From: Methylobacterium sp. CB376 | GTDB taxonomy: Bacteria; Pseudomonadota; Alphaproteobacteria; Rhizobiales; Beijerinckiaceae | DNA length: 64,000 bases | Assembly (NCBI RefSeq): GCF_029714205.1 | Contig: NZ_CP121648.1 | Location: forward strand, 3,676,001-3,740,000 | Reading direction: 5' to 3' | Notes under the pieces: generated by a model | Told to the model about the DNA's origin: nothing | The model's input: only the letters and a program-made list of their open reading frames with translations | The model's database searches: none | Made by a program: the position numbers and the translations under genes | Shown here: positions 13,593 to 35,300 of the stretch, piece by piece | Layout: every line of letters starts with the position of its first letter | Numbering within the stretch: position 1 is the stretch's first letter

Positions 13593-14621
13593 TCAGCTGC
13601 CCGGCTCGATCGAGCAGGTATCCGCTGCGCCCACCTTGAAGAATTGACCGATGAGAGGGCTCGTGGGGAGTTTTCGATCTTTGTTTCGACCGTGACCCTT
13701 AAATCCTCCGTAAACCACCCTATAATGTCTGAAAGATCGCACAACCGCGATCGGGGATCTCATCAGGAGAGAAAAAGCAAACTCCGCGGCCGTCAAGAAC
13801 TTTCTGTCTCGTAGGGCAAGAGATAGCAGCCAGGAAAGAACATTAACGTTTGCTTCCCTCAGGAGCGCCGCGGAACCAGCATCACGTCTGAGGTGGTCCC
13901 GGGCGACAAGGAGGAACGATTTGTACATCCTCCTGTGATTGCTTGACATGTTGTCGGAGGCTTGCCTGTATCCGGTCAGAAACTCGGGAACCAGCGCGAA
14001 GTTGTACTTTCTGGAGATTGCCAGGTAGAGGGCCCAATCCTCGCATCCTTGGGCACCTCGGTCTCGCAAGCTCGCGTCGTAGCCCCCCACCTCACGAACG
14101 GCGGCGGTCCGCATCAGGGTGGCGCTTCCGTTGCCGATGAAATTCATCGTGCACAGCGCCTCGTAGACCCTTCCCTCGTGAGCTGGTTTCCAGTCGGCGA
14201 CGATGATGATGCCCCGCTCGTCGATCTGGGCCGACCACGTATAGGCGAGCGCCGCATCGGCGCCGGCCGCCTCGATCGCGACCAGCTGCTTCGCGATGCG
14301 GTCCGGCGAACAGAGATCGTCCGCGTCGACGGGAGCGACGAAGGCGCCCCGGGCCTGCGCGATCCCCTCGTTCCGCGCCCGCGCAACCCCTCCGTTCGCC
14401 TGCCTGATCAACCGTATCCGTGCGTCGAGCGCCGCGTGACGCGCCACGATCGCGGTCGTGCGATCCGTCGAGCCGTCATCAACGACCAGGATCTCCAAAT
14501 CACGATGGCTCTGTGACCTGACACTCACCAATGTAGCGTCGATCGTCTTCTCGGCGTTGTACGCTGGAATAACCACGGTGACCAAAGTGTGGCAGTTACA
14601 CGAACTTGAATTCACGCTCAT
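13593..14621 (-). CDS. Family 2 glycosyltransferase
   Basis: The start at ATG 14,621 gives MSVNSSSCNC, followed by the GT-A fold (TLVTVVIPAYNAEKTIDATL, then EILVVDDGSTDRT). An ATG 18 bases further upstream is an alternative. The metal-binding DXD-type motif is APVDADDLCSPDRI, and GGYDASLRDRGAQGCEDWAL supplies the acceptor-side acidic residues. At 342 residues with no membrane helix, it resembles non-processive transferases of exopolysaccharide or O-antigen assembly; donor and acceptor are not predictable. A 7-bp inverted repeat CGAGACG/CGTCTCG (14,704-14,726) lies in its upstream region. It is the last of three same-strand glycan genes. Confidence 0.85.
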   Translation of the reverse strand: MSVNSSSCNCHTLVTVVIPAYNAEKTIDATLVSVRSQSHRDLEILVVDDGSTDRTTAIVARHAALDARIRLIRQANGGVARARNEGIAQARGAFVAPVDADDLCSPDRIAKQLVAIEAAGADAALAYTWSAQIDERGIIIVADWKPAHEGRVYEALCTMNFIGNGSATLMRTAAVREVGGYDASLRDRGAQGCEDWALYLAISRKYNFALVPEFLTGYRQASDNMSSNHRRMYKSFLLVARDHLRRDAGSAALLREANVNVLSWLLSLALRDRKFLTAAEFAFSLLMRSPIAVVRSFRHYRVVYGGFKGHGRNKDRKLPTSPLIGQFFKVGAADTCSIEPGS

Positions 14622-14857
14622 GCCACATCCATACAGCACGGAATCGCCTTATAGTGCACGATCTATGCGATATACCGGCAATCCGAACGGGCGCACTCGC
14701 CCCCGAGACGATACATTCACGTCTCGTATACATTGCGTGGTCGGATGAAGCAAATCGGCCGGCAATTCCGAGGTTGAAGCCTCGCCCGAACGGGCCGCGC
14801 TCGGTGTCGGCGGCGCCGAGAGCTGACCATGTGTCGGCCTGGACTGGGCGAGGCCTG

Positions 14858-15868
14858 TCATCCATCTCCGAGCGCCCGCGCGAGCACTGCCTTGCCGGCA
14901 TTCGGTGCGGCGATCCTGGGCAGGGCGTAGCGCTGAAAGTCTGCGGGCTCCACCGCCGTCGCGACGGTCGAGCATGCCCACGCGAAGCCGCACGCGGCCA
15001 CGGCGGCCTGAGCGGAGGCGTCCATCGCGCCGTACGGGTAGGCGAAGCCGTCGACGCGCTGCCCGCTCATCTCCTCCGCGGCGCGCTTGCCCTCCGCGAT
15101 TTCCCATCGCTGCTCGGCGGGCGTGAGCGTCGGCAGCGCCGGGTGACTGAGCGTGTGGCCTCCGATGGTGAGGACGCCGCGCCGCGCCATCCCGCGGACC
15201 TCGTCCGGCGTCATCGCCCTCTCCTCCTCGCAGGCCGCCCCCGCTCCCCCCAGAGCCCGTCGCAGCGTCGCCATCGCGCCCTCGCGCTCGGGACGCGAGG
15301 CGTCGCGGATCACGCGCCAGAGGGCCTGGTAGGCCGCCTCCCGCGCCGTCCGGGGACTCTCCCACGCGCGCCACCTCCGCCGGTCGCGGTCGAGCCGGTC
15401 GGGTTCGCCGAATTGCAGGCGGTATCGCCCGTCCGCGATCCCGACCGAGAGGTCGGCCGGGGCGGAGCGGTCGAGGATCAGGTGGGCGAGCTCGTCCCAC
15501 CAGAACGGCTCGGGACGCCCGATCGCGGCGGTCGTCAGGAAGAGGGTCGCCGGGATCCCGGCCGCCGCGAGCCTGGGCTCGGCCTGGCGCAGGTTGTCGA
15601 CGTAGCCGTCGTCGAAGGTGAGCGCCACCGCGTCGCGCGGGAGGGTGCCGGCGGTGAGCGCGGCGACGAAGGCGGCGAGGTCCATGGGGGTCCGGGAGCG
15701 CCGGAGATGCTCCAGATGCGCCTCGAAATGGCGCGGGGAGACCGCGAGTTGCCAGGGATCGGAGTCGAGCTCGGCGACCCGGTGATACATGAGGATCACC
15801 GGACGCGGTCCCGAGCCGAACGGCCAGGCCCTGCGCAGCTGGCGCTTGAGGAAGCCCACGCCCCTCAC
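14858..15868 (-). CDS. Polysaccharide deacetylase (NodB-homology domain)
   Basis: The product has 336 residues. VILMYHRV opens the fold, ALTFDDGYVDN (D86, D87) is NodB motif 1 with the catalytic base and metal ligand, and GGHTLSHPALPTL near residue 230 is motif 2 with both metal-binding histidines. All residues needed for a divalent-metal deacetylase are present. It removes N- or O-acetyl groups from a polysaccharide. No clear signal peptide is seen, although FLKRQLRRAW at the start could be membrane-associating. The start is GTG 15,868, one base after the stop of the upstream glycosyltransferase-methyltransferase gene, so translation is probably coupled. Confidence 0.85.
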   Translation of the reverse strand: MRGVGFLKRQLRRAWPFGSGPRPVILMYHRVAELDSDPWQLAVSPRHFEAHLEHLRRSRTPMDLAAFVAALTAGTLPRDAVALTFDDGYVDNLRQAEPRLAAAGIPATLFLTTAAIGRPEPFWWDELAHLILDRSAPADLSVGIADGRYRLQFGEPDRLDRDRRRWRAWESPRTAREAAYQALWRVIRDASRPEREGAMATLRRALGGAGAACEEERAMTPDEVRGMARRGVLTIGGHTLSHPALPTLTPAEQRWEIAEGKRAAEEMSGQRVDGFAYPYGAMDASAQAAVAACGFAWACSTVATAVEPADFQRYALPRIAAPNAGKAVLARALGDG

Positions 15869-15869
15869 C

Positions 15870-17504
15870 TCACGGCCTCCGCGCCGCCCGGGCGGCCACG
15901 ATCACCGGGTAGGATGCGTCCGCGACGTCGAGCTTCGTCGGATCCACCTCCGAGAGGGCGAGCCCCTGGAGGAAGGCCGTCGCGGCGTAGACGTTGCCGT
16001 GGCTCCGGACCGTCGCCGCGCCGGCGCCGAACACCTCGTCGAGGAGGCGCGTCAGCGCGGCGGGGGTCAGGGACCAGAACCAGGTCCCGGACCACTCGCC
16101 GCGGTCGATCGGGCTGATGCCGGGCACGGTCAGCAGGAGCACGCCGCCGGGCCTGAGGGCGCCGTGCAGCTGGCGCAGGGCGCTCGCCATGTCGAAGATG
16201 AGGTGCAGCGTCTGGGTGAGGACGATGCAATCGAAGGCGGCCTGCGGCAGCGTGCCCGCCCGGCTGATGTCGCCGATGAGCGTCGCCCTGGGATTGCCGG
16301 CCTCGACGTGGAGGATGTCCTGCCGCTCGACCCGCGCGCCGCCGAAGCGCCGTGAGTAGGCGTCGTCGCCGATCTCGAGCACGCGGCCGCGGATGTCGGC
16401 GGCCGCCCCCTCCAGAAATCGCTCGATGTAGAACCTGTCCACCGGGAGCCCGCGATCCCAGCCGAAATCCTCGCTCACCGGCCAGGGCGTTCCGAAATCA
16501 CCCCAATCAACCCGGCCGACCGGGGGCGAGGCGCGACCGACGAGGCGGCGGCGCAGCCGATAGCCCGCGCGGCGGGAGACGGCACCGCCGAGCCGGATCG
16601 CCGCCCGGCGCGCCAGCTCGCCCGCGGTCCACAGCGGGTCGAGACGCGCGGCGGCCGCCACGCCGCGCGGCGAGATGCGTCCGCCGGCCCGCAGCGCCTC
16701 GCCCGCGTAGTACCGGCGCCAGAAGCGGCGCCCCTCGGACCAGGTCTCCCTGCGCAGCGAGTCGGCCTCCGCCGCGGGCCGGTACCGCGCGTGGACGGCG
16801 AGGGCCGCGTCCCGCATCGCGCGGAAGTCGTAGGACATGTTGCTGTCGTGCCACCGATAGCGGGCGACGACCGTCGGGTGCGACGCGATCGCGTGGGCCT
16901 GCGCGAGGCGCAGGTAGACGTCGTAATCCTCGCATCGCCTCAGCCGGGTGTCGAAACCGCCCGCGGCCGAGAGGATGTCGCGGCGGTACAGGACCGTCGC
17001 GTGCATGCCGACGATGTTGTGGTGCAGCAGCGCGGCGACGGGATCACCGGCCATCGCGTGGTAGACGGCTCCTCCGAGGGGATTCCCATCGCGGTCCACC
17101 CTCTCGTGGGCACCGTACACGAAGGCGACGCCCGGCGAGCGGGCGAACGCGGCGAGGCCCTGCGCGATCGCGGCGGGGCGCAGCATGTCGTCGGCGTCCA
17201 GGAACAGGATGTAGGTCGTGCGGGCCTGCGCGAGCCCGGTGTTGCGGGCGGAGGAGAGGCCCTGATTGGGCTGACGGATGAGCCGCACCCCCGGCCACCG
17301 GGCCACGATCGCGGCCGGATCGTCGCTCGACCCGTCGTCGACGACGATCACCTCCTCCGGCACCCTGGTCTGCGCGGCGACGCTCGCCAGTGCCTCGCCC
17401 AAGAAGTGGGCGTGGTTGTAGGTGGTGATGACGACCGTGACGTCGCTCCCGGCGATGAGCTGGATCGACTTCTCATTCGACGGGGTGGTAATCGGCGCCT
17501 CCAT
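15870..17504 (-). CDS. Glycosyltransferase family 2 fused to a SAM-dependent methyltransferase
   Basis: The start at ATG 17,504 is chosen because AAGGA precedes it; two further in-frame ATGs upstream lack spacing. The 544 residues have two domains. Residues about 20-240 are a GT-A transferase (DVTVVITTYNHAHFLGEAL, VIVVDDGSS, FLDADDMLRP with the DXD-type motif at 103-106). Residues about 350-540 are a class I methyltransferase (GRVLEIGDDAYSRRFGG, FDCIVLTQTLHLI, ALRPGGVLLLTVPG). The fusion would let one protein add a sugar and methylate the growing glycan, for example as a capping step. It is translationally coupled to the deacetylase and divergent from the ABC exporter. Confidence 0.85.
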   Translation of the reverse strand: MEAPITTPSNEKSIQLIAGSDVTVVITTYNHAHFLGEALASVAAQTRVPEEVIVVDDGSSDDPAAIVARWPGVRLIRQPNQGLSSARNTGLAQARTTYILFLDADDMLRPAAIAQGLAAFARSPGVAFVYGAHERVDRDGNPLGGAVYHAMAGDPVAALLHHNIVGMHATVLYRRDILSAAGGFDTRLRRCEDYDVYLRLAQAHAIASHPTVVARYRWHDSNMSYDFRAMRDAALAVHARYRPAAEADSLRRETWSEGRRFWRRYYAGEALRAGGRISPRGVAAAARLDPLWTAGELARRAAIRLGGAVSRRAGYRLRRRLVGRASPPVGRVDWGDFGTPWPVSEDFGWDRGLPVDRFYIERFLEGAAADIRGRVLEIGDDAYSRRFGGARVERQDILHVEAGNPRATLIGDISRAGTLPQAAFDCIVLTQTLHLIFDMASALRQLHGALRPGGVLLLTVPGISPIDRGEWSGTWFWSLTPAALTRLLDEVFGAGAATVRSHGNVYAATAFLQGLALSEVDPTKLDVADASYPVIVAARAARRP

Positions 17505-17826
17505 GAGATCCTTGCTTCCCTTCATCCTGAGAGGCCCGCTCTGCATCGGCGCGCGTCGCGACGCGCGGACGGCGCCGGTCGTCGCCGGCCCGGGCACCCC
17601 GCGGCTGATCGTGGAACGGCGGCCCGCCCTCATCGCTGTTGCGCCGCCGGTCCGCGCGTTCGCGACGCCCCGCGCCGCGCCCGCCGCGCGAGGCGTCTTG
17701 GAGCGTCACTTCGGAAGCCCGCGTGATCGGGTACCGGCATGATGAGGGGAACGACCCGAGCCGCGGCGTCGGATCCGCCCATGCCTCCGTTCAAGATCCA
17801 TTCGTCGCGACCGATCGAAGATTTGC
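17505..17826. promoter_or_regulatory. Divergent intergenic region between glycan genes and ABC exporter
   Basis: This 322-bp gap separates two divergent start codons and must carry both promoters. The GC-rich left part contains only weak reading frames. The stretch 17,795-17,830 is AT-richer (CGATCGAAGATTTGCATG) and leads directly into the exporter gene. No recognisable -35/-10 pair or operator can be assigned with confidence. Confidence 0.4.
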
Positions 17827-19590
17827 ATGTTTTTATTCGATAAGCATCGCCCGCTCGTCAACATCGCGCGCCGCTATCTGTGGTCGGTTCCAGCCGTCAC
17901 GGTTCTCGGCCTCATCTCCACGGGACTCGAGGGCATCGGGGTCGGCCTGATCGCGCCCCTGGTCGTGAGCTTGACGTCGAGCGAGTCGGTGGCCTCGTCC
18001 GGCCCGTTCCGCGTGCTGATGCAGTTCGGGGCGGATTTGCCGGCGAATACACGCCTCGTTTACATCTGCGCAGGGATCGCGGGTCTCGTCATCCTGAAGA
18101 ACGCGGTCGCGTTCCTCAACACGCTCCTGATCTCGTTCGTGGATGGTCGGGCCAGCCACGACGTGCGCGTCGCTCTCGCGCACCAGCTTCTCACGGTGGA
18201 GTACGGCTTCTTCCTGGTCGAGCCGCCGGGCCGGATCATCAACATCCTGGCCAATGAATCGTGGCGGGCGTCGGAGGCCATACGGGCCTTCTTCCAGGCC
18301 CTGTCCAGCGCCGCGTCCCTCATCCTGTTCGGGATCTTCCTGCTCTGGAGCGAGTGGCGGCTGGGATTGGCGGTCGGACTGGGCGTCCTGGCCATCCGGC
18401 ACGCGATCGCCCGGATCACCCGTCGGGTGAACGACCTCAGCAGCCAGATGTCGGCGGAGAACGAGTCGCTGGCGAGCGCGATGATGATCAGCGTCCTGGC
18501 CATGCGCCCGATCCGCATCTTCGGGCAGGAGGCGCGGGAGGAGGCCCGCTTCCGCGACGCGTCCGAGAAGGTTCGGGCGCTCATCTTCGCGATGGAGCGG
18601 AAATCGGCGCTGATCCAACCCCTGAGCGAGAGCCTGCGGACCTGCGTGCTGGTCCTCCTGCTGGCCGGCACCGTCCGGGTCGCGGCCGACGTTCCCCTGC
18701 CGGTCCTCGCGACGTTTCTGGTCCTGCTCCAACGCACGCAGCCGCACCTCGCCACGTTCGAGGCCGCCCGCGCCAAGATCTCACAGACCTCCGGCGCCGT
18801 GCAGGAGGTGGAGTGGCTCCTGGCGGTGACGCGCAAGGCTGCGCCGCGATCGCTGGGCCAGGTCAAGCCCAGCTTCGACAGGGATATCCGTTTCGCCGAC
18901 GTGAGCTTCCGGTATCACAGTTCCTCCGAGATCCGAACGATCGACAGTGCCTCTTTCGTCATCCGCGCCGGCTCATCGACGGCGCTGATCGGACCGTCCG
19001 GCTCAGGGAAGTCAACGATCATCAATCTCCTGTGCGGCCTGCTCGAGCCCACATCGGGTGAGATTCTGGTGGACGGGACCTCATTGGACCGGCTCGATCG
19101 TTCGGAATGGCTGAATCTGATCGGCATCGCCGGACAGGACACCGAGATCATCGAGGGGACGATCGCCGAGAACATCGCCTACGGCGCCCCGCATGTCGGC
19201 CAGGCCGAGATCGAGGAGGCCGCGCGAGTGGCGGACGCCGACGCCTTCGTCCGGTCCCTGCCGCTGGGCTACGCGACGAATGTCGGCAGCAGGGGACTCA
19301 ACCTGTCGGGAGGCCAGCGGCAGAGGATCGGCCTCGCACGCGCCATCGTCCGCAAGCCCAGATTGCTGATCCTGGATGAGGCGACGAGCGCGGTCGACGG
19401 CCTGTCGGAGAGGACGATCATGGATCTCCTCGCGTCGTCGCGCCGGTCCTGCACGATGCTCGTCGTGAGCCACCGCATGAGCACGCTCTCGCGATGCGAC
19501 AGCGCGATCGTGCTGGAGGGGGGCCGGGTGGTCCGGGCGTCACCGATGACCGACGTCATGCGCGACCGCGAGGCGATCCCGATCCCGTAG
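17827..19590 (+). CDS. MsbA-like ABC exporter (fused membrane and ATPase domains)
   Basis: The 587-residue half-transporter has six membrane segments within about residues 15-320 (for example VPAVTVLGLISTGLEGIGVG and ALSSAASLILFGIFLL). The ATPase domain carries Walker A GPSGSGKST near residue 390, signature LSGGQRQRIGLARA near 493, Walker B LLILDEATSAVD near 513, and the H-loop VVSHRMS. It would dimerise and flip or export a lipid-linked glycan or related amphiphile. Its position, divergent from two glycosyltransferases and a deacetylase, makes export of their product the best guess. The start is ATG 17,827; a good ribosome-binding site is not evident. Confidence 0.85.
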   Translation: MFLFDKHRPLVNIARRYLWSVPAVTVLGLISTGLEGIGVGLIAPLVVSLTSSESVASSGPFRVLMQFGADLPANTRLVYICAGIAGLVILKNAVAFLNTLLISFVDGRASHDVRVALAHQLLTVEYGFFLVEPPGRIINILANESWRASEAIRAFFQALSSAASLILFGIFLLWSEWRLGLAVGLGVLAIRHAIARITRRVNDLSSQMSAENESLASAMMISVLAMRPIRIFGQEAREEARFRDASEKVRALIFAMERKSALIQPLSESLRTCVLVLLLAGTVRVAADVPLPVLATFLVLLQRTQPHLATFEAARAKISQTSGAVQEVEWLLAVTRKAAPRSLGQVKPSFDRDIRFADVSFRYHSSSEIRTIDSASFVIRAGSSTALIGPSGSGKSTIINLLCGLLEPTSGEILVDGTSLDRLDRSEWLNLIGIAGQDTEIIEGTIAENIAYGAPHVGQAEIEEAARVADADAFVRSLPLGYATNVGSRGLNLSGGQRQRIGLARAIVRKPRLLILDEATSAVDGLSERTIMDLLASSRRSCTMLVVSHRMSTLSRCDSAIVLEGGRVVRASPMTDVMRDREAIPIP

Positions 19591-21617: not shown

Positions 21618-22706
21618 TCATGGCTTTACTGATGCTTCTCGCTTAATCCGCTCAGCGTGAGCTGGGCTGGACAGCAAATTTCCGAATGTCAGGATCACGC
21701 GAGCCTTGGCCTGCTCGACGTAGCTCTCTTTACATCCGGTCACGATGCAACTTGAGACGCGAATTTTCTGATCCACCGCGAAGCGGTCAGCATCGTTCAA
21801 TGAGATTTTGACGACCTGCCCGCGATCGCGCGCCCTGTTCGGGGGCTGAAACTCGGGGGGCAGCGCGTCGGTGACCGGAAGGATGCGGGCGATCTGGCCC
21901 GACACACTCTGGCGATGGGCGGAGACCTGCACCGACTGGCCCTCGGCAGCTTCGAAGAGATAGCTTTCAGGCATGTAGGCGAGCACGAAACTCGTGCCGG
22001 TGTAGATCGAGGCCAGCCGATTCGAGCCTGGCGTGAGGACCTCGCCGGGGCTCGCGATCGCGCTTCCGACGACGCCGGAGACCGGCGCGGTGAGCACGCC
22101 GTCCGCGTAGACCCTGCGCAGGTTGTCGGAAGCACTGGTGATTTCGGCGAGCGCCGCCCGGTTCGACGCGAGTTCCGTATCGAGCGAGATCTTCTCGGAG
22201 ATCATCGTGAGCAGGCGCTCGGTCGCGGTGAATGATGCGGCGGTGACCTCATGCAGCGAGCGGTTGAGGGCAAGACCCGAACTCTTAGCCTTGTTCAAGT
22301 CGGCCATGAACTCGTTGGCCTGCTTCGCGCCGGCACGGGCGACAGGGACCATCGCGGCCACGATCGTCGTGCGGGCCTCGAGTTGAGCGACGCGCGAGGA
22401 GATCTTCGCGCGCTCAATGGAGAATTCCGCGAGCGTCTTCGAGATCGAGGGAGAGTCGACCACAGCAATCTTCTGGCCGGCGACGACCGTGTCGCCCGGG
22501 CGCACGAAGACCTCACGGACGCGGGCATCATAGGGCGTCGCCACGTAGACTCGGTCGCGCGTGACCAAACCGTCCGCATTCAGAACCAGAACGCCACTTG
22601 AGTAATAATAGAAGCCTATCGCTCCGCTGCCGATCACCGCAGTACCGGTCACGAGAACTCGGAACAGCTTGCCCCAGCTCATCTGGCTCACCTTGAGTTC
22701 AGACAT
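21618..22706 (-). CDS. HlyD-family membrane-fusion adaptor, polysaccharide-secretion type
   Basis: The 362-residue product has one N-terminal membrane helix (about 15-40, LFRVLVTGTAVIGSGAIGFYY). A split biotinyl-lipoyl-like domain follows (ATPYDARVREVFVRPGDTVV and GVLTAPVSGVVGSAIASPGE) around a helical hairpin at about 95-200, then a beta-barrel C-terminal part. This is the layout of adaptors such as Alg44 or HlyD. GGGAGAG precedes ATG 22,706. It is the third gene of an operon, 15 bp after wecB, downstream of an NfrB-like glycosyltransferase. It probably guides the nascent polysaccharide through the periplasm (inference). The protein has no c-di-GMP-binding PilZ segment. Confidence 0.85.
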   Translation of the reverse strand: MSELKVSQMSWGKLFRVLVTGTAVIGSGAIGFYYYSSGVLVLNADGLVTRDRVYVATPYDARVREVFVRPGDTVVAGQKIAVVDSPSISKTLAEFSIERAKISSRVAQLEARTTIVAAMVPVARAGAKQANEFMADLNKAKSSGLALNRSLHEVTAASFTATERLLTMISEKISLDTELASNRAALAEITSASDNLRRVYADGVLTAPVSGVVGSAIASPGEVLTPGSNRLASIYTGTSFVLAYMPESYLFEAAEGQSVQVSAHRQSVSGQIARILPVTDALPPEFQPPNRARDRGQVVKISLNDADRFAVDQKIRVSSCIVTGCKESYVEQAKARVILTFGNLLSSPAHAERIKREASVKP

Positions 22707-22721
22707 CTTGCTCTCCCAAGC

Positions 22722-23846
22722 TCAGGCGGCAGCCGACCGACGGAGCGTGCGCGCGATCAGCGCGTCAGCGATCCGGACCGATGCATGCCCGTCACCGAAC
22801 GGGTTCGGCCCGCCCAGCCGGTGAGGCGTCCTTCCGCGCGTGCGTTCGCGGGCCATCGCCGTGATGACGTCGTGGTCGGACCCGACGAGGCTTCCGAAGC
22901 CGGCCGCCACCACTTCCGGACGCTCGGTCGTCGTCCGGGTAATGAGGATCGGCAGGCCGAAGGTCGGCGCCTCCTCTTGCACACCTCCCGAATCGCTGAT
23001 CACCAGCCACGCGCGGCTGAGGAGATGGACGAAGTCGAGATACTGAAGCGGCGCGAGCAGACACACATTCTCGATTCCACCGAGAATTGCTAAAACCTCG
23101 CGACGCACTTCGGGGTTGAGGTGAACCGGCAGCGCGACGACCTTGTCGCCGTCCTCGGCCAGCGAGCGGAGCGCCCGAAGCACCTCGCGCATCGGGCTAC
23201 CGATGTTCTCGCGGCGATGCATCGTCGCGAGAATCAGCTTCTTGTTGAGCGGAATGCCGGCAATGCCCGAATCGACCGGCGCGTAGTTCGGGGCGGTATT
23301 CTCGCGAGCGTAGAGAAGCGCGTCCACCACCGTGTTCCCGACCGTGATCACAGACTTCGGATCAACGCCTTCCCTGAGCAGATTCGCCGCACTCTCCGCG
23401 GTCGGCGAAAAATGCAGGCTGGAACTCACCGAGATGACACGTCGGTTGTACTCCTCGGGCCAGGGTGACGAGAGGTCACCGGTGCGCAAACCAGCCTCGA
23501 CATGGGCGACGGGTACCCTGGACAAGAACCCAGCGCTCGCGGCGGCGGAAGCAGTGGCCGTGTCACCCTGGACCACGATCCAGTCGTAATGGGTCGCTCG
23601 AAGCGCCGCGGCGATCTGGTTCGTCATCAAGCCGAACTTCTCGGCCAGGCCGGGTTCGCTCATCACCGCTTCGCCATGGTACCTGACGGTGATGTTGAAC
23701 AACTGCAACAGGCCGGCCGCCAGCTCAATGTGCTGGCCGGTCCAGTATGCGTCCACCTGAATGCCAGGCTGCGCCACAAGGGCCCGATACACCGGTCCAA
23801 GTTTGATGATCTCGGGACGCGTCCCAAAGGCGATCAGAATACGCAT
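22722..23846 (-). CDS. wecB: UDP-N-acetylglucosamine 2-epimerase (non-hydrolysing)
   Basis: The 374-residue product shows GTRPEIIKLGPVY at residues 8-20 and the catalytic residues D95 (VVQGDTATA), E117 (HVEAGLRTGD) and E131 (WPEEYNRR), the same numbers as in E. coli WecB. The MHRREN histidine is at 210, and SDSGGVQEEAP binds UDP. It interconverts UDP-GlcNAc and UDP-ManNAc in the cytoplasm. Its place between a processive glycosyltransferase and a HlyD-like adaptor implies that it supplies UDP-ManNAc to that transferase rather than to enterobacterial common antigen, for which no other gene is present. The gap to the upstream stop codon is 22 bp. Confidence 0.92.
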   Translation of the reverse strand: MRILIAFGTRPEIIKLGPVYRALVAQPGIQVDAYWTGQHIELAAGLLQLFNITVRYHGEAVMSEPGLAEKFGLMTNQIAAALRATHYDWIVVQGDTATASAAASAGFLSRVPVAHVEAGLRTGDLSSPWPEEYNRRVISVSSSLHFSPTAESAANLLREGVDPKSVITVGNTVVDALLYARENTAPNYAPVDSGIAGIPLNKKLILATMHRRENIGSPMREVLRALRSLAEDGDKVVALPVHLNPEVRREVLAILGGIENVCLLAPLQYLDFVHLLSRAWLVISDSGGVQEEAPTFGLPILITRTTTERPEVVAAGFGSLVGSDHDVITAMARERTRGRTPHRLGGPNPFGDGHASVRIADALIARTLRRSAAA

Positions 23847-23868
23847 GTACTTCTTCCTTTAATTTTTT

Positions 23869-25197
23869 TTACCGAGTGGCTTTCCCGAAATCCTCAGGAA
23901 GATCGTGCGCCGTTTTCGACCAGCCGATCGGCTTGGTCGCGAATTCCGACTCACCGATGTAAGTCTTCCACGCGCGGAAGACGGCTGCCGCGTTGATATA
24001 GAGTCCAACCGGCCAACGATACGCGATGCCGAGCAGATCATACGTACCGTAAACTTCGCGGCAAGCTGCGACCCTGACCACATAACGGGTGAACAGCGCA
24101 ACGAGGTTCACGGTGACAGACGCCGACAAAAACGGCTCCAAAGACTCAGGTACACCAGAAAGATCGATGATGCCGCCTGCGATCAGGAGTAAGATCATCA
24201 GCGAGACAGGTGGAAGCAAATTCGTGACAACGCCCTTCCTGTCACGCACAAAAAAGTACTTATCCCAAGCATCACCCTTCCAGCCCAGCTTGTGCGTGGC
24301 TTCGAAGTTTATGCCGTATACCCAGCGCGTCTTCTGCTTTATACTTGCCGACAAGCTTTTTGGGAAAAACTCCCGTGTTGCGACGTAGTTCAGACCGCGC
24401 TCATCGTCGGCAGAAACCGCCGCGAAAGCCGATCTGAAGCCTGCGCGCTTGGCTTCTACGCCGAGGATGTAGTCTTCCGTGACCGTCCCGGACATGAGGA
24501 CCTGACCCCGCGTTGCTAGGAAGTGCTGCAGCAGCTTCCTGGTCATCGCGGTGCCCACCCCGGCCGACGGGATGGCCGCACCCACCGCGTTCCTCACGAT
24601 CATCTCGCGAGTGTGCCTTTCAGCGAATTCGTCCATGTAGGTCGACGCGACGGGAAGCCCCTCGCCCCGATCGAGCGAGAACACGGGGACCTGAATAAAG
24701 TCGTGATCTTTGCTATATTCGGCATAGATAGAAAAGGTGCGCGGATCAATGACATCCTCGCTGTCATGCAGGACGGCGATGTCCGGGCAGTCCTCGCGCT
24801 CGAAGACCTGTCGGAACATTTCATTCAGCATCTGGCCCTTCGAGGTCGGACCGCTGAGCGTATTGACGATGACGGTGACGCGACTCGGGTATTTGCACTC
24901 GAGTTCCCTGGCGACGCGCAAAGTACCCGTGTCGTTCGGGTAAACGCCAAGGTACAAGCTCACGTCGGGGCAGGTAATCCGCGCGAGATTGCCTTCGACC
25001 ATCCGCCCGAGGACGTCCTCCTCATGCCAGTTTGCAACAAACACGGCGATGCGGGGGATAGCGGACTTCCCGGACAGGCTCGGGAGACCCCTTCTCGAAA
25101 TCCCGAATGCCATCAAATCGATGAACGCATCGTCGAGTGAGGAGATATTGATCAATGAACTAACGGCAAACATAGCTATTGGAATGACTTCACTCAT
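23869..25197 (-). CDS. NfrB-like processive glycosyltransferase (family 2, membrane-bound)
   Basis: The 442-residue product resembles the glycosyltransferase part of NfrB, the inner-membrane phage-N4 receptor component. Shared blocks are ISSLDDAFIDLMAF, FVANWHEEDVLGRMVEGNLA, LGVYPNDTGT, VTVIVNTLSGPTSKGQMLNE and AAIPSAGVGTAMTRK. The processive motifs are all present: DSEDV (145-149), TED (240-242) and QKTRW (288-292). One hydrophobic segment lies near the N-terminus and about three near the C-terminus (LLPPVSLMILLLIAGGIIDL and on). E. coli NfrB has about 745 residues including a C-terminal c-di-GMP-binding MshEN domain, which is missing here. It is the first gene of the operon with wecB and the HlyD-like adaptor. 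Confidence 0.82.
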   Translation of the reverse strand: MSEVIPIAMFAVSSLINISSLDDAFIDLMAFGISRRGLPSLSGKSAIPRIAVFVANWHEEDVLGRMVEGNLARITCPDVSLYLGVYPNDTGTLRVARELECKYPSRVTVIVNTLSGPTSKGQMLNEMFRQVFEREDCPDIAVLHDSEDVIDPRTFSIYAEYSKDHDFIQVPVFSLDRGEGLPVASTYMDEFAERHTREMIVRNAVGAAIPSAGVGTAMTRKLLQHFLATRGQVLMSGTVTEDYILGVEAKRAGFRSAFAAVSADDERGLNYVATREFFPKSLSASIKQKTRWVYGINFEATHKLGWKGDAWDKYFFVRDRKGVVTNLLPPVSLMILLLIAGGIIDLSGVPESLEPFLSASVTVNLVALFTRYVVRVAACREVYGTYDLLGIAYRWPVGLYINAAAVFRAWKTYIGESEFATKPIGWSKTAHDLPEDFGKATR

Positions 25198-26072
25198 AGC
25201 ACCACACTCAATACGCTCACGATAAGCGCTGCGCTCCGCGCGTCGCTGATCGGTGAAAAATGTCTTAACTGGCGTGCTTTGTAAATTCGAAGGGTATCGG
25301 TATGAGTACGTACGTCGTCTGATTTATAGTGAATAAGAGCAGTTACTCGGATCCAAGGCCCCCGTTAACCATCTATATTCGAATTGATAATGAGAAAAAG
25401 TTTCTGTCTTCGCTCCTGACAAGCGATTTCATATCCGACCTTGAGCCGGTTTTATGGTTAAGTTCTAGTTCATTTCGTGCATGCCTTGCGACGCTTGGAA
25501 CCTCGTGCCAGCCGGTTCGTCGGTCACGACTTAAATCCCTGGTGACGCCCTCGAGCGCATACGGACCGGCCGGCCGGATGGTTGCCGGCTCGGCTTGGGT
25601 TCACTTGATCGGGGTCAGCCTGCGTTGCGCGCGGTCCGCCCCGAGGACCGGCTCTCGAACCTGTTGACGGCCTGCGGGTCTCAGTCGGGCCCGAGGGCCC
25701 GAGAGCGGCGCGCGACGGCCCTTGTTCACGGGCCCGACGGCCCCCGACAACGCCGCCGGGGGAGACGGTCGCTCCTCGCACGCCGTCCTGCTGCATGCGC
25801 AGTCGCTCCCGACGCCGCGCGGTGCGATCCGATCCGCGCGGCCCAGCGACCATCCGCCCCGCGGCACGAAACTCGATCTGGCGCACTCAACTTCGACGCG
25901 CAAAATCCAGCAAGGTTTCCGTCGTACCGGCGAGAGCCAAGAGCCTCGCCCCAACTGTCTCAGCACAATATTTAGGCAGCATCTGTCCTTACGGCATCTT
26001 TGTAGGATTTAATGCTTTCGCAATCCGCCCCAATCATATTGCCCGACATGCGAGCAAGGGGCGCGCGGCGCG
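25198..26072. other. Long intergenic region upstream of the glycan-secretion operon
   Basis: These 875 bp separate two divergent genes. The left 300 bp (25,198-25,500) are AT-rich, with runs such as TTTGTAAATTCG and TTGATAATGAGAAAAAG, and should contain the promoter of the NfrB-like operon. The right part (25,520-25,870) is GC-rich, with dense palindromic stretches (GGGCCCGAGGGCCCGAG near 25,690 and CGACAACGCCGCCGG near 25,745) but no supportable gene. An AT-rich patch at 25,960-26,050 precedes the chemoreceptor-like gene. Confidence 0.45.
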
Positions 26073-29188: not shown

Positions 29189-30991
29189 ATGAGTTCAGAT
29201 GCTAACAATGCCTGCTCACCATCAGGAGCCGCACGCAGCATCCAGATGGATCCGGCATCTGCGCTGTCACGCTGCAAGTACGCGCTGTTAGGGGTCGCTC
29301 TGATGAGCGGTTTGGTCAACATCCTTTACCTGACCGGCTCGTTCTTCATGCTCGAAATTTACGACCGCGTCATTCCGAGCCGCAGCGTGCCGACGCTCGT
29401 CGGGCTGATGACGCTCGCCCTGGTCCTCTACGTGTTTCAAGGAATGCTCGAGACCCTGCGCTCACGCGTCCTGACCCGGATCGCGATGAGCCTGGACGAG
29501 TCGCTCTCGGATCGGGTGTTCGACCTGATGGTGCGTGCGCCGCTCAAGGGGGCAGCCCCGAGCGACGGCCTGCTGCCGATGCGCGACCTCGACCAGCTGC
29601 GGGGTTTCCTCGCCGGTTCGGGCCCAGGGGCGTTCTTCGACCTGCCCTGGATGCCGATCTACCTGGCGATCTGCTTCCTGTTCCACCCGCTCGTCGGCGT
29701 TGCCGCCGTTGCGGGGGGCGCCGTCCTGGCCTGTGTGACCCTGGCGACGGATTGCCTGACGCGCCGCTCCACGAAGAAAGCGATGGCGCACGCCTCGCAG
29801 CGCTACGCGCTCGCCGAGGCCGGTCGCCGCAACGCCGAGGTGCTCGCCGCCATGGGCATGCAGGAGCGCTTCGCGACGCGCTGGGCCGTGGCGAACCACG
29901 GCTACCTCGTCGAGCAGCGGCGTTTGGCGGACGTCACCGGCGGGTTCGGCGCGGGCTCCAAGGTGTTCCGGGCCGCGCTGCAATCGGGCGTGTTGGCGCT
30001 CGGCGCCTGGCTCGTCGTGAACAACCTGGCCACGGGCGGCATCATCATCGCGAGCTCGATCCTGGTCTCGCGCGCCCTCGCGCCGGTCGAGCTCGGCATC
30101 GCCAACTGGAAGGGCTTCGTGCAGGCGCGCCAGGCCTGGCAGCGCCTCGGCACGGCGTTCGAGCGGATCCCTGCGGTGCGCGAGCCCCACGGGCTCCCCG
30201 CGCCGCAGCAGGCGCTGAGTGTCGAGAGCGTCAGCGTCGCGCCGCCCGGCACGCCGCGGGTCGTGGTGCAGGACGTTTCGCTCGCCCTCGAGGCGGGCCA
30301 TGGGCTCGGCGTGATCGGCCCCTCGGCCTCGGGAAAGTCCTCGCTGGTGAGGGCGATCGTGGGCGTGTGGTCGCCGCTGCGGGGCAAGGTGCGCCTCGAT
30401 GGGGCCGCGCTTGACCAATGGACGAGCGCCGCGCTCGGCCGGCATATCGGCTTCCTGCCGCAGGAGGTCGAGCTATTCGCCGGCACGATCGCGGAGAACA
30501 TCGCCCGCTTCGAGCCGCAGGCCGCCCCCGAGCACGTCATCGCGGCGGCGCGGGCGGCGGGCGTCCACGAGTTGATCCTGCGCCTGCCGGAGGGCTACGA
30601 CACCCCGATCGGCGAGGGCGGGGCTGGTCTCTCGGCTGGACAGCGCCAGCGGGTAGGGCTCGCGCGCGCCCTCTACCGCGATCCCTTCCTCGTCGTCCTC
30701 GACGAGCCGAACGCGAACCTCGACACCGAGGGCGAGAACGCGCTGACGCAAGCGATTCTGGGCGTGCGCCGGCGGGGCGGGATCTGCGTGGTGGTGGCCC
30801 ACCGGCCCAGCGCGCTCGCCGCCGTCGACATGGTCCTGATGATGACCGACGGCCGCGCCCAGGCCTTCGGCCCGAAGGACGAGGTGTTGAAGCGCGTGCT
30901 GCAGCCGGTCGCCGCGCCAGTGCAGGCCCCGGCCCAGCCTCACCTGCCCCGGGCGGTGCCACTCCCCGAGACAATGCGGGAGACTGCGTGA
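29189..30991 (+). CDS. Type I secretion ABC transporter (PrtD-like permease/ATPase)
   Basis: The 600-residue product has a membrane domain (about 30-320) that opens with the PrtD-type pattern ILYLTGSFFMLEIYDRVIPS and includes FFDLPWMPIYLAICFLFHP. The ATPase domain has Walker A GPSASGKSS near residue 378, signature LSAGQRQRVGLARAL, Walker B VVLDEPNANLD, and the H-loop in VVVAHRPS. There is no C39 peptidase or C39-like N-terminal domain, as in transporters of RTX proteases and giant adhesins. It powers secretion across both membranes with a membrane-fusion protein and TolC. The stop overlaps the next start as TGATG, so the pair is translationally coupled. No TolC gene lies in the window. Confidence 0.92.
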   Translation: MSSDANNACSPSGAARSIQMDPASALSRCKYALLGVALMSGLVNILYLTGSFFMLEIYDRVIPSRSVPTLVGLMTLALVLYVFQGMLETLRSRVLTRIAMSLDESLSDRVFDLMVRAPLKGAAPSDGLLPMRDLDQLRGFLAGSGPGAFFDLPWMPIYLAICFLFHPLVGVAAVAGGAVLACVTLATDCLTRRSTKKAMAHASQRYALAEAGRRNAEVLAAMGMQERFATRWAVANHGYLVEQRRLADVTGGFGAGSKVFRAALQSGVLALGAWLVVNNLATGGIIIASSILVSRALAPVELGIANWKGFVQARQAWQRLGTAFERIPAVREPHGLPAPQQALSVESVSVAPPGTPRVVVQDVSLALEAGHGLGVIGPSASGKSSLVRAIVGVWSPLRGKVRLDGAALDQWTSAALGRHIGFLPQEVELFAGTIAENIARFEPQAAPEHVIAAARAAGVHELILRLPEGYDTPIGEGGAGLSAGQRQRVGLARALYRDPFLVVLDEPNANLDTEGENALTQAILGVRRRGGICVVVAHRPSALAAVDMVLMMTDGRAQAFGPKDEVLKRVLQPVAAPVQAPAQPHLPRAVPLPETMRETA

Positions 30992-32334
30992 TGGCCGCGA
31001 GCCTCGATCCCGTCAGGATCCCTCTGGTGCGCCCGCCGGCGACCGCCGACGCCTCGATCCGGCGGCACCTCCGAGCCTCTCTCCTCCTCGGCACCGTCCT
31101 GGTCGGCGGGGTCGGCGGCTGGGCAACCTTCACGCAGATCTCGGGCGCGGTGATCGCCCCGGGCCAGCTCGTGGTCGAATCGGACGTCAAGAAGGTGCAG
31201 CACCCGACGGGCGGCGTCGTCGGCGAGCTCCTGGTGCAAGACGGCGACCCTGTCAAAGCGGGCGACGTCCTCATCCGTCTCGATGAGACGCAGACCCGGG
31301 CGGGCCTCGACATCCTGCTCAAGGCCCTCGACGAGCTCAGCGCCCGGCGCGCCCGCAACGAGGCGGAGCGCGACGGAGCGGGAGGCATCACCTTTCCGGC
31401 TGACCTGCTGCAGCGCGCCAAGGCTGACGCCACGGCCGCCCGCCTGATCGACGGCGAGACGAAGCTGTTCACCTCGCGGGTGAACGCCCGGGAGGGTCAG
31501 AAGGCGCAGCTGCGCGAGCGCCTCGCGCAACTCCAGCAGGAGATCGGCGGGCTCACCCAGCAGGCGAGCGCGAAGGAGCGCGAGATCGCCTTCATCGGGA
31601 GCGAGCTCAAGGGCGTGCGCGAGCTCTACGCCAAGAACCTCGTGCAGCTGCCGCGGCTCAACGCGCTCGAGCGCGACGCAACCCGGCTCGAAGGCGAGCG
31701 CGGCCAGCTCCTCGCCTCGACCGCGGCCCAACGAGGCAAGATGTCGGAGATCGAGCTGCAGATCCTGCAGATCGACCAGGACATGCGCACCGAGGTCGGC
31801 AAGGAGCTCGCCGAGATCCGCAGCAAGTGGTCGGAACTCGTTGAGAAGCGGGTCGCGGCCGAGGACCAGCTCAAGCGGGTCGAGCTGCGCGCCCCGCAGG
31901 ACGGAATCGTGCACCAGATGACGGTGCACACGATCGGCGGCCTCGTCACCCCGAACGAGCCCGCGATGCTGATCGTCCCCTCCTCCGACCGGCTGGCGCT
32001 CGAGGTGAAGATCCAGCCCCACGACATCGACAACGTGCGTTTCGACCAGAAAGCGGTGCTGCGCTTCTCCGCCTTCAACCAGCGCACCACGCCCGAAATC
32101 GACGGCCAGGTGACGCGCGTCTCGGCCGACGTGACCACCGATCCCAAGACGGGGGCGAGTTTCTACACAGCCCGCATCAGCGTGCCCGACGACCAAAGGG
32201 CACGCTTGGGCGCCGTTCGCCTCGTGCCCGGCATGCCGGTGGAGAGCTTCATCCAGACCGGCGAGCGCACCGTACTGTCGTACCTAACCAAGCCGCTCAC
32301 TGATCAGATCACCAAAGCGTGGCGGGAGCGCTGA
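30991..32334 (+). CDS. Type I secretion membrane-fusion protein (HlyD/PrtE family)
   Basis: The start at ATG 30,991 overlaps the transporter's stop by one base. The 447 residues have a single membrane helix (about 27-47, ASLLLGTVLVGGVGGWATFT), the lipoyl half-motifs (KKVQHPTGGVVGELLVQDGD and VELRAPQDGIVHQMTVHTIG) and a long coiled coil between about 95 and 275. The C-terminal block (ARISVPDDQRARLG, VRLVPGMPVESFIQTGERTV, LTKPLTDQITKAWRER) is the family end signature. A degraded copy of that block lies at 50,843-51,021. It bridges the ABC transporter to the outer-membrane channel. The giant substrate gene begins 55 bp later. Confidence 0.92.
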   Translation: MAASLDPVRIPLVRPPATADASIRRHLRASLLLGTVLVGGVGGWATFTQISGAVIAPGQLVVESDVKKVQHPTGGVVGELLVQDGDPVKAGDVLIRLDETQTRAGLDILLKALDELSARRARNEAERDGAGGITFPADLLQRAKADATAARLIDGETKLFTSRVNAREGQKAQLRERLAQLQQEIGGLTQQASAKEREIAFIGSELKGVRELYAKNLVQLPRLNALERDATRLEGERGQLLASTAAQRGKMSEIELQILQIDQDMRTEVGKELAEIRSKWSELVEKRVAAEDQLKRVELRAPQDGIVHQMTVHTIGGLVTPNEPAMLIVPSSDRLALEVKIQPHDIDNVRFDQKAVLRFSAFNQRTTPEIDGQVTRVSADVTTDPKTGASFYTARISVPDDQRARLGAVRLVPGMPVESFIQTGERTVLSYLTKPLTDQITKAWRER

Positions 32335-32389
32335 ACGGCCTCAGCGCTGTTTCCGACTTCAGAAATAAATCCAAAAGGGAGTACGAGTC

Positions 32390-35300
32390 ATGGCTATCTC
32401 GCTCACGTCCGGCATTCTGGAAGTCGATGAGGGCTCCTTCTCGACGGCGGACGAGCTTCTCTACGCGGGCAACACCGTGACGTTCTATGATACCGGCTTA
32501 GGCTCGCTTTACGCCAACTTGGCGGCTCAAGCGGTGACCGGCGCAGCAGCCCTGTCCACCCCCCAGAAGGCGGTGGACCAGGGCATGTTCAACATCGCGA
32601 CGAACACCAAGGATCTGCTGCTCTCGTCGGCGGGCACGCTGTCGAGCGGCGCGGTCCAACAGTTCAGCACAAGCATCGGTGTCGACAGCGGCCTCACGAC
32701 CGTCGACGGAAAGAAGATTTTCTTGTTCGCCGTGTCGGGCGACGACGACATCGTGGTCGGTCGCGTCGGTGCCGATGCGACCTCGGCGAAAGATGGCGGC
32801 ATTGCCTTCTCGATCGCGCTCGACGAGCAGGTTGACCAGACGACCGGCTACGTCACGAAAGCTCAACTCTGGATCACACAATACGCAGCGATCACGAACG
32901 TGGGCGTTGACAAAATTGACGCCAATGATTTCCAGGCGCTGACACAGAAGCTGTTCGTCGCCTCCAGCGAGTCGGTCACTAACGAGAACACGACCTTCAG
33001 CACAGCGTCATCCGGCGCGCCCGTTTACGCCATCGTCACGCCGCCATCCAACTCACAGGACCTTAGCGTCCTGGTGACCGCGTTCAACAGCGACGACCCG
33101 AGCACAACCATCCATGAGGACTACCTGTCCCAGCGGTTGAACATCAGCACGACCGGCTTTGGCGTCGGCAGCCAATCGGTCACGGCACCACCCAACGGGG
33201 CCGGCATCCGACTCGACTACGTGCGAAACGGCGTCGCCGGCGCAGGATCGGACCCGACGGGTTCCTTCTCTAGCCACAATCACAACATCACCAACGCTGG
33301 ATTTGGGATCACTCAGATCCAGGGCGGAGGCACCACGGCCGATGTCAAGGTGACGGCGATCCAGGCGAATGCGCCGGATGATGATGCAACCAATTTCTTC
33401 GCTGATCTTGGCAAGAACGACACGGTGGTTACGATCGAGGCGGTTCGCGTCAAGGACGCGAGCGGCAATGTCGTCTACCTGGGCGGCAATGTCGCCAATG
33501 CGAACGGCCTGACGATCTCCGGCGTCGGCTCGGCCTCGGCCGTGACCGTGAAGGGCGTTCAGCTGAACTGGACGGTCGAAGTCGTGAACAAGATCGGGAC
33601 CTTCGACCGCCTTACGGTCGAAAATGTCGGCTCCAAGGGGTTCGATGTTGGCCACCTGATCTATACAGCACCGCCGACGGTCCAGAATACGGTCGTCGAA
33701 CTCGGCTCGCATGTTCACTTTCTCGACGGGGGGCCGTCTGTCACGACCGACGCAACGCAGGTCGGCGCCTGGATCGTGGACGAAAGCACCCCGAATTCCA
33801 GTGATCACCACAGCGTTGCGGCGGCGTTCACCGCGAGCGGCGGCCCCGACGGGACCGATACGATCGCTTACGCGCTAAGTGCCACGGCCGGCAAGAGCGG
33901 CTTGAAGAGCGGCGGTGAGGACGTTCTGCTGCGCCTGTCCAACGGCGTCGTGGAAGGCTATACGGCGAGCAACAATAAGGTCATCTTCTCCGTCAGCGTG
34001 AATTCCAGCACCGGCGATGTGACGGTCACGGAGAGCGGTCATCTCGACCATCCGGGCACCAGCGATCCCGACGACGCCGTGGCGATGGCCGCCAGCCTGA
34101 TTCAGGTGAGCCAAACGGTTACGGACAAGGACGGCGACCACGCGACCGGCTCCGTCTCGATCTCCGACAAGATAAGTTTCAAGGACGACGGTCCGACCGC
34201 GGTCGCGGGCTCCGACGTGAGCCTCTCCAGCACGGACGGCAGCAGCATCGCCGGCCAGGGGACCGCGTCGTTTACCATCGGATACGGCGCGGACGGCGCC
34301 GGCACTACGACCTATGCCCTTACGATCAACACGGCTGCTACCGGCCTGACGTCCGGCGGCAAAGCGATCACCCTGTCCATGAGCGGCGCCGACGTGGTCG
34401 GCAAGACCAGCGACGGCGTCCTGGTGTTCACGGTGTCTTCGACGGGCAGCGGTGCCTTGACACTCGTCCAGTCGGCCGCGCTCGACCACAGCGGCGGGAC
34501 GGCGCGCACCCTGAATGGGGCGATCTCCCTGACGGCCACCGTGAAGGACGGGGATGGCGACGCGGCGTCGGCCAGCGACAAGATCAATCTGTCATTCGCG
34601 GACGGTGCTCCGACCATCACCGGCTCAGGGCCAGTCTCGCTCGCCACCAGCGATGCGAATCTCGGGCCCTCGGGCCACGACGTGAAGGCGGCCACGTTCA
34701 CGCCGGACTACGGACCGGATGGAGCCGGCTCGGTCAGCTACAGCCTAATCGGCACGGGCAGCACGAGTCTCACGTCGGCCGGCAAGGCGATCAGCCTGTC
34801 GAAAGATGCCGGGGGCGTGATCCATGGCGCGACTTCGGACGGTAACGTGTTCACCGTGTCGGTCGATCCGTCAGGTCAGGTCACGCTCACGCAGTTCAAG
34901 GCCATCGACCATGCCGCGGGCTCCGACACGGCCAGCCTGAACGGCGCGATCAGCATCAGCGCCGTCGCGACGGACGGTGACGGCTCGACCTCAGCTCCTG
35001 CGTCGCAGGGGGTCAATCTGACCTTCGCCGATGACAAGCCGACGATCACGGCCGATGCGTCGGCCTCGCTGAGCACCAGTGACGCGACGCTCGGGACGGA
35101 CACGAAGGCGGTGACCATCACGCCGGCTTACGGTGCCGACGGTGCGGGTGCGACCCACTCGGCGCTCGTCATCAATGCCGCCACCACGGGTCTGACGTCC
35201 CACGGCTCCGCGATCACGCTCGTGGCGGATGGCGCCGACGTGGTCGGCAAGGCCGACACGACCGAAGTCTTCCGCGTCTCGTTCAGCGGAGGGCAGGTTA

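Follow-up and report, generated by a model that had tools for sequence, protein, structure and literature searches.

A conserved trio of NfrB-like synthase, WecB-type epimerase and HlyD-type adaptor in Methylobacterium as a candidate exopolysaccharide module

Which polymer would be made by a glycosyltransferase that resembles the catalytic half of NfrB, and how would it leave the cell? These questions are raised by a three-gene operon in a stretch of 64,000 nucleotides (hereafter the window) from Methylobacterium sp. CB376 (contig NZ_CP121648.1, positions 3,676,001 to 3,740,000), a host with a genome of 7.69 Mb. The operon encodes, in order of transcription, a family 2 glycosyltransferase (GT2; the protein is called GT below), a WecB-type UDP-N-acetylglucosamine (UDP-GlcNAc) 2-epimerase and a HlyD-type periplasmic adaptor; the genes share one strand and are separated by gaps of 22 and 15 bp (Table 1), as tightly spaced as an earlier note on this DNA had described them. 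Our best reading is that the trio is a synthase-dependent exopolysaccharide module, and we put at about 0.68 the probability that it makes and exports a polymer containing N-acetylmannosamine (ManNAc), the outer-membrane pore left aside. The gene identities, the conservation of the trio, the kinship of GT with NfrB, its intact catalytic motifs and the ties of the adaptor family to GT2 synthases are shown directly.

Conservation and distribution of the trio

A contig scan for relatives of the window GT, which works with exact peptides and therefore undercounts, confirmed 335, and the best 80 (79 loci) were kept. The close GT loci (L004-L019, n = 16) show 61-99% identity by best segment and come from 15 genomes, called carrier genomes here, plus that of L018. 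Counted by tblastn rather than by open reading frame (ORF) calls, since the latter favoured shadow ORFs in several loci, the complete trio is present in 14 of these 16 loci. As for the remaining two, the contig of L011 ends inside WecB, and L018 is a decayed copy with fragmentary GT and WecB. The trio occurs in Methylobacterium, Microvirga, Hyphomicrobium, Bradyrhizobium and other genera, and L103 and L104, from genomes reached via HlyD, also bear it in full. Twelve of the 14 full loci have GT next to WecB (gap 11-205 bp); the WecB-HlyD pair is separate from GT in two Microvirga loci, and HlyD is placed before GT in L012. One Bradyrhizobium diazoefficiens genome holds two trios of differing gene order, L012 and L013. 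The loci are partly non-independent: the GT of L004, the closest named locus (Methylobacterium sp. WSM2598), is 99% identical to that of the window, and L009/L010, L013-L015 and L005/L006 are mutually close. Flanks differ between genera and are common only to close relatives. Among 17 neighbourhoods the next commonest gene family (generic ABC transporters) is found in at most seven, and a family seen in six consists of shadow ORFs over the trio genes; a conserved fourth gene was therefore rejected. Nor was a conserved linked regulator found in the 17, an AraC-type gene adjoining the genes only in L012 and, by BLAST family, in L018. The trio is conserved as a unit, beyond chance, and no description of it was found in the open-licence literature searched. 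A DUF2334 protein (PF10096), a family that we take to be deacetylase-like, lies after HlyD in the trio locus L008 (7657-9342) and after GT in a Bdellovibrio locus (L020:9350-11164).

Within Methylobacterium the distribution of GT is patchy: M. nodulans carries it (81% identity), and all nine other genomes of the genus listed lack it at E up to 1e-60. At the same threshold two of 199 family genomes gave a match; in the second of these the matched protein is NfrB-type and does contain MshEN, the cyclic di-GMP (c-di-GMP)-binding domain of NfrB. The G+C content at third codon positions (GC3) is 70% in GT, 77% in HlyD and 78% in WecB, below that of 10 of the 11 other window genes measured (82-95% in these 10, 75.5% in one); the trio has therefore likely been gained laterally, judging from this base composition. 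No promoter-like site was found by consensus scan in the AT-rich region 5' of the operon, promoter and terminator predictions were not above chance, and Rfam gave no match within the window. A role in anti-phage defence was considered and rejected, as PADLOC has no match for the GT, WecB or HlyD protein.

Table 1. Operon genes and upstream region, in window numbering; the three operon genes lie on the minus strand.
Feature	Position	Strand	Basis
NfrB-like processive GT2 synthase, 442 aa	25197-23869	-	ATG start, profile matches, motifs, trees
WecB-type non-hydrolysing UDP-GlcNAc 2-epimerase, 374 aa	23846-22722	-	ATG start, profiles, residues
HlyD-type periplasmic adaptor, 362 aa	22706-21618	-	ATG start, profiles, structure model
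AT-rich region 5' of operon, presumed promoter-bearing	25198..25500	not assigned	base composition

The synthase and its sugar

The window GT scores 219.8 bits against Pfam Glyco_tranf_2_3, 1002 bits against NCBIfam NF011306 (PRK14716.1-4; cut-off 504, also exceeded by the GTs of L008, L012 and L016) and 223 bits against the NfrB equivalog NF008411, below the 1170-bit cut-off of the latter. Its motifs are D89, D145-x-E147-D148, T240-E241-D242 and Q288-x-x-R291-W292, the last three of which are unchanged across 58 aligned rows including E. coli NfrB, and it shares 28.8% identity with the GT2 catalytic half of that protein over 469 columns. Profile scores, sequence comparison and tree place it with NfrB, apart from other GT2 synthases, and the description of the protein as an NfrB-like processive glycosyltransferase stands; the grouping with cellulose- or hyaluronan-type GT2s that the earlier note had named as speaking against it was checked for, and GT grouped with NfrB instead. 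An identity as cellulose, hyaluronan or poly-N-acetylglucosamine synthase was rejected, profile scores and tree favouring NfrB. A sequence search of the PDB with the window GT gave no match at E up to 10.

The absence of MshEN, noticed from the start, is confirmed in two ways: Pfam finds just two GT2 models in the window GT, and a hidden Markov model (HMM) of the C-terminal part, built from 28 long homologues and E. coli NfrB and run on the 80 locus GTs, has no match in it. The 38 locus GTs without a match include all trio, Bdellovibrio-group and Methylocystis GTs and the Francisellaceae GT, so that the lack is not peculiar to Methylobacterium; L018 and L057 are partial and thus not judgeable, the 28 long GTs match by construction, and most GTs of 540-575 aa match only the first 60-80 positions. 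In the accessible text of PMC8669469, MshEN is present in 1,705 of 1,841 NfrB homologues, and some MshEN-free homologues were therefore already known. The window GT is not a member of NfrB proper, neither MshEN nor NfrA having been detected, and its catalytic part most likely works like that of NfrB. Judged by its domain content, it may well be free of c-di-GMP control, at least of the NfrB manner.

The second gene encodes a UDP-ManNAc-forming epimerase, as had been claimed: the protein scores 355.7 bits against TIGR00236 (cut-off 210), and the positions matching K15, D95, E117, E131 and H213 of E. coli WecB, of which we take the last four to be active-site residues, are conserved in it and 13 relatives. 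K15 is described as an active-site residue in the accessible text of PMC8669472. The window epimerase is the sole Epimerase_2 match in the host genome, the family is single-copy in 11 of the 15 carrier genomes, and the trio WecBs form one clade (support 100/100). NeuB, which would point to sialic-acid-type use of ManNAc, occurs in one of the 15.

In E. coli, NfrB-NfrA-YbcH and WecB make the N4 glycan receptor (NGR), WecB providing UDP-ManNAc, as the parts of PMC8669469 and PMC8669472 at hand report. The window operon resembles this system in its homologous GT2 catalytic half with the same motifs and in having WecB as a source of UDP-ManNAc; it differs in that its GT has no detected MshEN, NfrA_C is found in none of the carriers, WecB lies inside the operon and a HlyD adaptor has been added. 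In Pseudomonas soli and Achromobacter xylosoxidans wecB is clustered with nfrB, according to the same parts of PMC8669469 and PMC8669472, and the trio is like these clusters in having wecB beside an nfrB-type gene; the one such cluster inspected (L045, Achromobacter pulmonis) still has part of the C-terminal domain, along with NfrA_C and a BcsB-like gene. By analogy with E. coli, where the use of UDP-ManNAc is itself deduced, ManNAc is the probable substrate of GT, a view strengthened because the operon carries its own, mostly single-copy epimerase.

The adaptor and the outer-membrane exit

The third protein scores 41.4 bits against PF13437 (HlyD_3; cut-off 22.2) and is built of one N-terminal helix, a hairpin whose two helices span 57 and 56 residues, and lipoyl and barrel parts. 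In predicted structure its best fold match is EmrA, which it resembles in overall adaptor fold at 15% identity; EmrA docks to TolC, and its partner is a pump of the major facilitator superfamily (MFS), whereas the partner gene in the window is a synthase. Sequence search of the PDB gave four weak matches only (best E 0.094), and no NfrB, Alg44 or BgsB chain is among the listed structural matches of GT and HlyD, which excludes nothing. Alg44 carries a PilZ domain, and none was matched in the window HlyD at E up to 0.1. The adaptor had been announced as HlyD/Alg44-like; the HlyD half of that label holds, and an Alg44-type adaptor was rejected, PilZ being missing and EmrA the best fold match. No ATP-binding cassette (ABC), MFS or resistance-nodulation-division pump is linked to HlyD, its operon partners being WecB and GT; an MsbA-like ABC gene at 17827-19590 lies on the opposite strand, 2 kb from the operon.

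Distant relatives of the adaptor adjoin a different, PgaC-like GT2 in 19 of the 20 examined (G220 and G271 lying outside these 20), compared with none of 30 type I secretion adaptors used as a control, a single adaptor kind; known positives in the same database were recovered 11 times out of 11. The window HlyD thus belongs to an adaptor family that partners polysaccharide synthases, newly seen here. The PgaC-like loci (L092-L102 and L105-L120), from the same taxonomic order as the host, share the HlyD family (30-37% identity) and place HlyD directly after a processive-type GT2; they differ from the trio in that their GT is of the PgaC branch, WecB was not matched in the loci and a TackOD1 protein lies upstream. 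A precedent by analogy, though from another GT2 branch, is the mixed-linkage glucan operon BgsBA of rhizobia, in which the available text of PMC9495663 describes a GT2 synthase with a c-di-GMP site (BgsA) and a HlyD-like protein (BgsB), the same two-part logic in one operon. In the tree BgsA, a cellulose-synthase-type GT2, joins BcsA (support 100/98) and stands apart from the window GT, and by BLASTP comparison alone BgsB has no match to the window HlyD at E up to 1.

Ahead of the PgaC-like GT2 and HlyD pair, the 16 loci L105-L120 of this order encode a TackOD1 (PF18551) protein, which in most cases bears a response-regulator domain. Pfam was used to check this protein in L105, L108 and L114; in the other loci its assignment comes only from a merged BLAST family in which histidine kinases are also grouped. 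The function of TackOD1 is obscure according to the available part of PMC5847659, and its position suggests a link to polysaccharide synthesis. In L105 (8739-10676) a HlyD of the adaptor family is fused to a GH16 glycosidase domain.

Two pore families were searched, NfrA_C (PF13283) and OEP. NfrA_C is found in none of the 15 carrier genomes, the E. coli control being positive, and the operon holds no outer-membrane pore gene; to call the pathway self-contained, as the earlier note did, was an overstatement. OEP gave eight matches across four open frames in the host genome, none within the window, and a TolC-like exit is therefore possible. In Methylocystis (L038:3054-6125) an MshEN-free GT has WecB just upstream, and a tetratricopeptide repeat (TPR) protein close by matches NfrA_C weakly, at 18.5 bits against a cut-off of 25.

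Proposed mechanism and alternatives

We propose that WecB would convert UDP-GlcNAc to UDP-ManNAc, that the membrane-embedded GT, kin of the NfrB catalytic half, would polymerise it, and that the chain would cross the membrane through a channel of GT itself. HlyD, held by its one-helix anchor, would take over the chain in the periplasm, and its long hairpin would lead to a TolC-type channel encoded elsewhere, the two standing in for the TPR-barrel exit that NfrA provides in E. coli; the synthase, having no MshEN, would not be switched by c-di-GMP as NfrB is. Export of a polymer by the module is very likely. On the adaptor model, departure through a TolC-type channel has slightly less than an even chance, and the full scheme, a tripartite synthase-adaptor-TolC route in which the ManNAc polymer passes from the processive GT2 straight to a HlyD/EmrA-type adaptor and out through TolC, with an adaptor family swappable between NfrB-like and PgaC-like synthases, is unlikely as a whole. 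If the proposal is true, the compact MshEN-free trio with its own epimerase would be a simple system for finding out what is polymerised by NfrB-type enzymes. The adaptor result suggests, in testable form, how polymers made by synthases may get across the periplasm when an NfrA-type pore is not found, and connects unannotated loci of rhizobia and methylotrophs.

Several points weigh against the proposal. The link between NfrB and ManNAc in E. coli is itself a genetic inference, the sugar not having been isolated (accessible text of PMC8669469 and PMC8669472); linkage to WecB indicates a supply of UDP-ManNAc, not its exclusive use by GT; four of the 15 carrier genomes hold more than one epimerase (2, 3, 3 and 2); and five of 13 Bdellovibrio-group loci have no visible WecB. 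The WecC model has two matches in the host genome (234 and 182 bits, cut-off 459), and a UDP-ManNAcA branch via these two sub-cut-off UDP-sugar dehydrogenases would be unlikely. On the export side, the NfrA_C model may overlook divergent pores, the TolC-like genes are unlinked to the operon, an EmrA-like fold is common to many adaptors and helical hairpins inflate Z, L018 has no match for HlyD, and at L114, one of the distant HlyD loci, 19.5 kb contain no match for a GT2; the adaptor control was of one kind and includes the window's own type I adaptor. The carrier genomes are mostly drafts, and the host and WSM2598 are near-identical.

The same machine might use another sugar, making a heteropolymer (e.g. 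of GlcNAc and ManNAc) or taking UDP-ManNAc as a minor substrate. WecB equilibrates UDP-GlcNAc and UDP-ManNAc, so that both are available, and the predicted structure of the window GT aligns with hyaluronan synthase as well, an enzyme that uses two sugars; yet the trio is not accompanied by any other conserved nucleotide-sugar enzyme, a phosphosugar mutase lies near it only in L011, L012 and L018, and NfrB genetics, in the available text of PMC8669469, indicate UDP-ManNAc. We regard this alternative as improbable. Somewhat less doubtful, and compatible with a ManNAc polymer module, is an exit that is not TolC-like: an unlinked TPR-barrel, other pore or other protein, HlyD merely bridging or regulating. 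It gains from the absence of any outer-membrane gene conserved with the trio and from pore searches that covered two families, and loses through the EmrA-like adaptor model with its long hairpin and the missing NfrA_C.

Many relatives of HlyD are named 'multidrug resistance efflux pump' by their sources, as expected if it were an ordinary efflux adaptor adjoining sugar genes by chance; the operon has no pump gene, and the GT2 neighbours of the distant relatives, against none for the control adaptors, make this explanation very remote. If the operon were a silent passenger gained recently, this would accord with its low GC3, the nine Methylobacterium genomes without GT and the decayed copy L018; three intact frames and conserved catalytic residues speak against it, and we give it a small chance. 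The trio is best read as a module for a ManNAc-containing exopolysaccharide.

Elsewhere in the window, a polysaccharide deacetylase accompanies a pair of GT2 proteins, one of which has a methyltransferase domain, in a second sugar cluster (13593-17633). At 29189-38869 an ABC transporter and a HlyD of the type I secretion kind precede a 2159-aa protein in which DUF5801 occurs in ten stretches, and a 3439-aa protein carries 24 Cadherin_4 stretches (51671-61990). In the Microvirga locus L006 a Big_9/cadherin protein lies directly after the trio HlyD.

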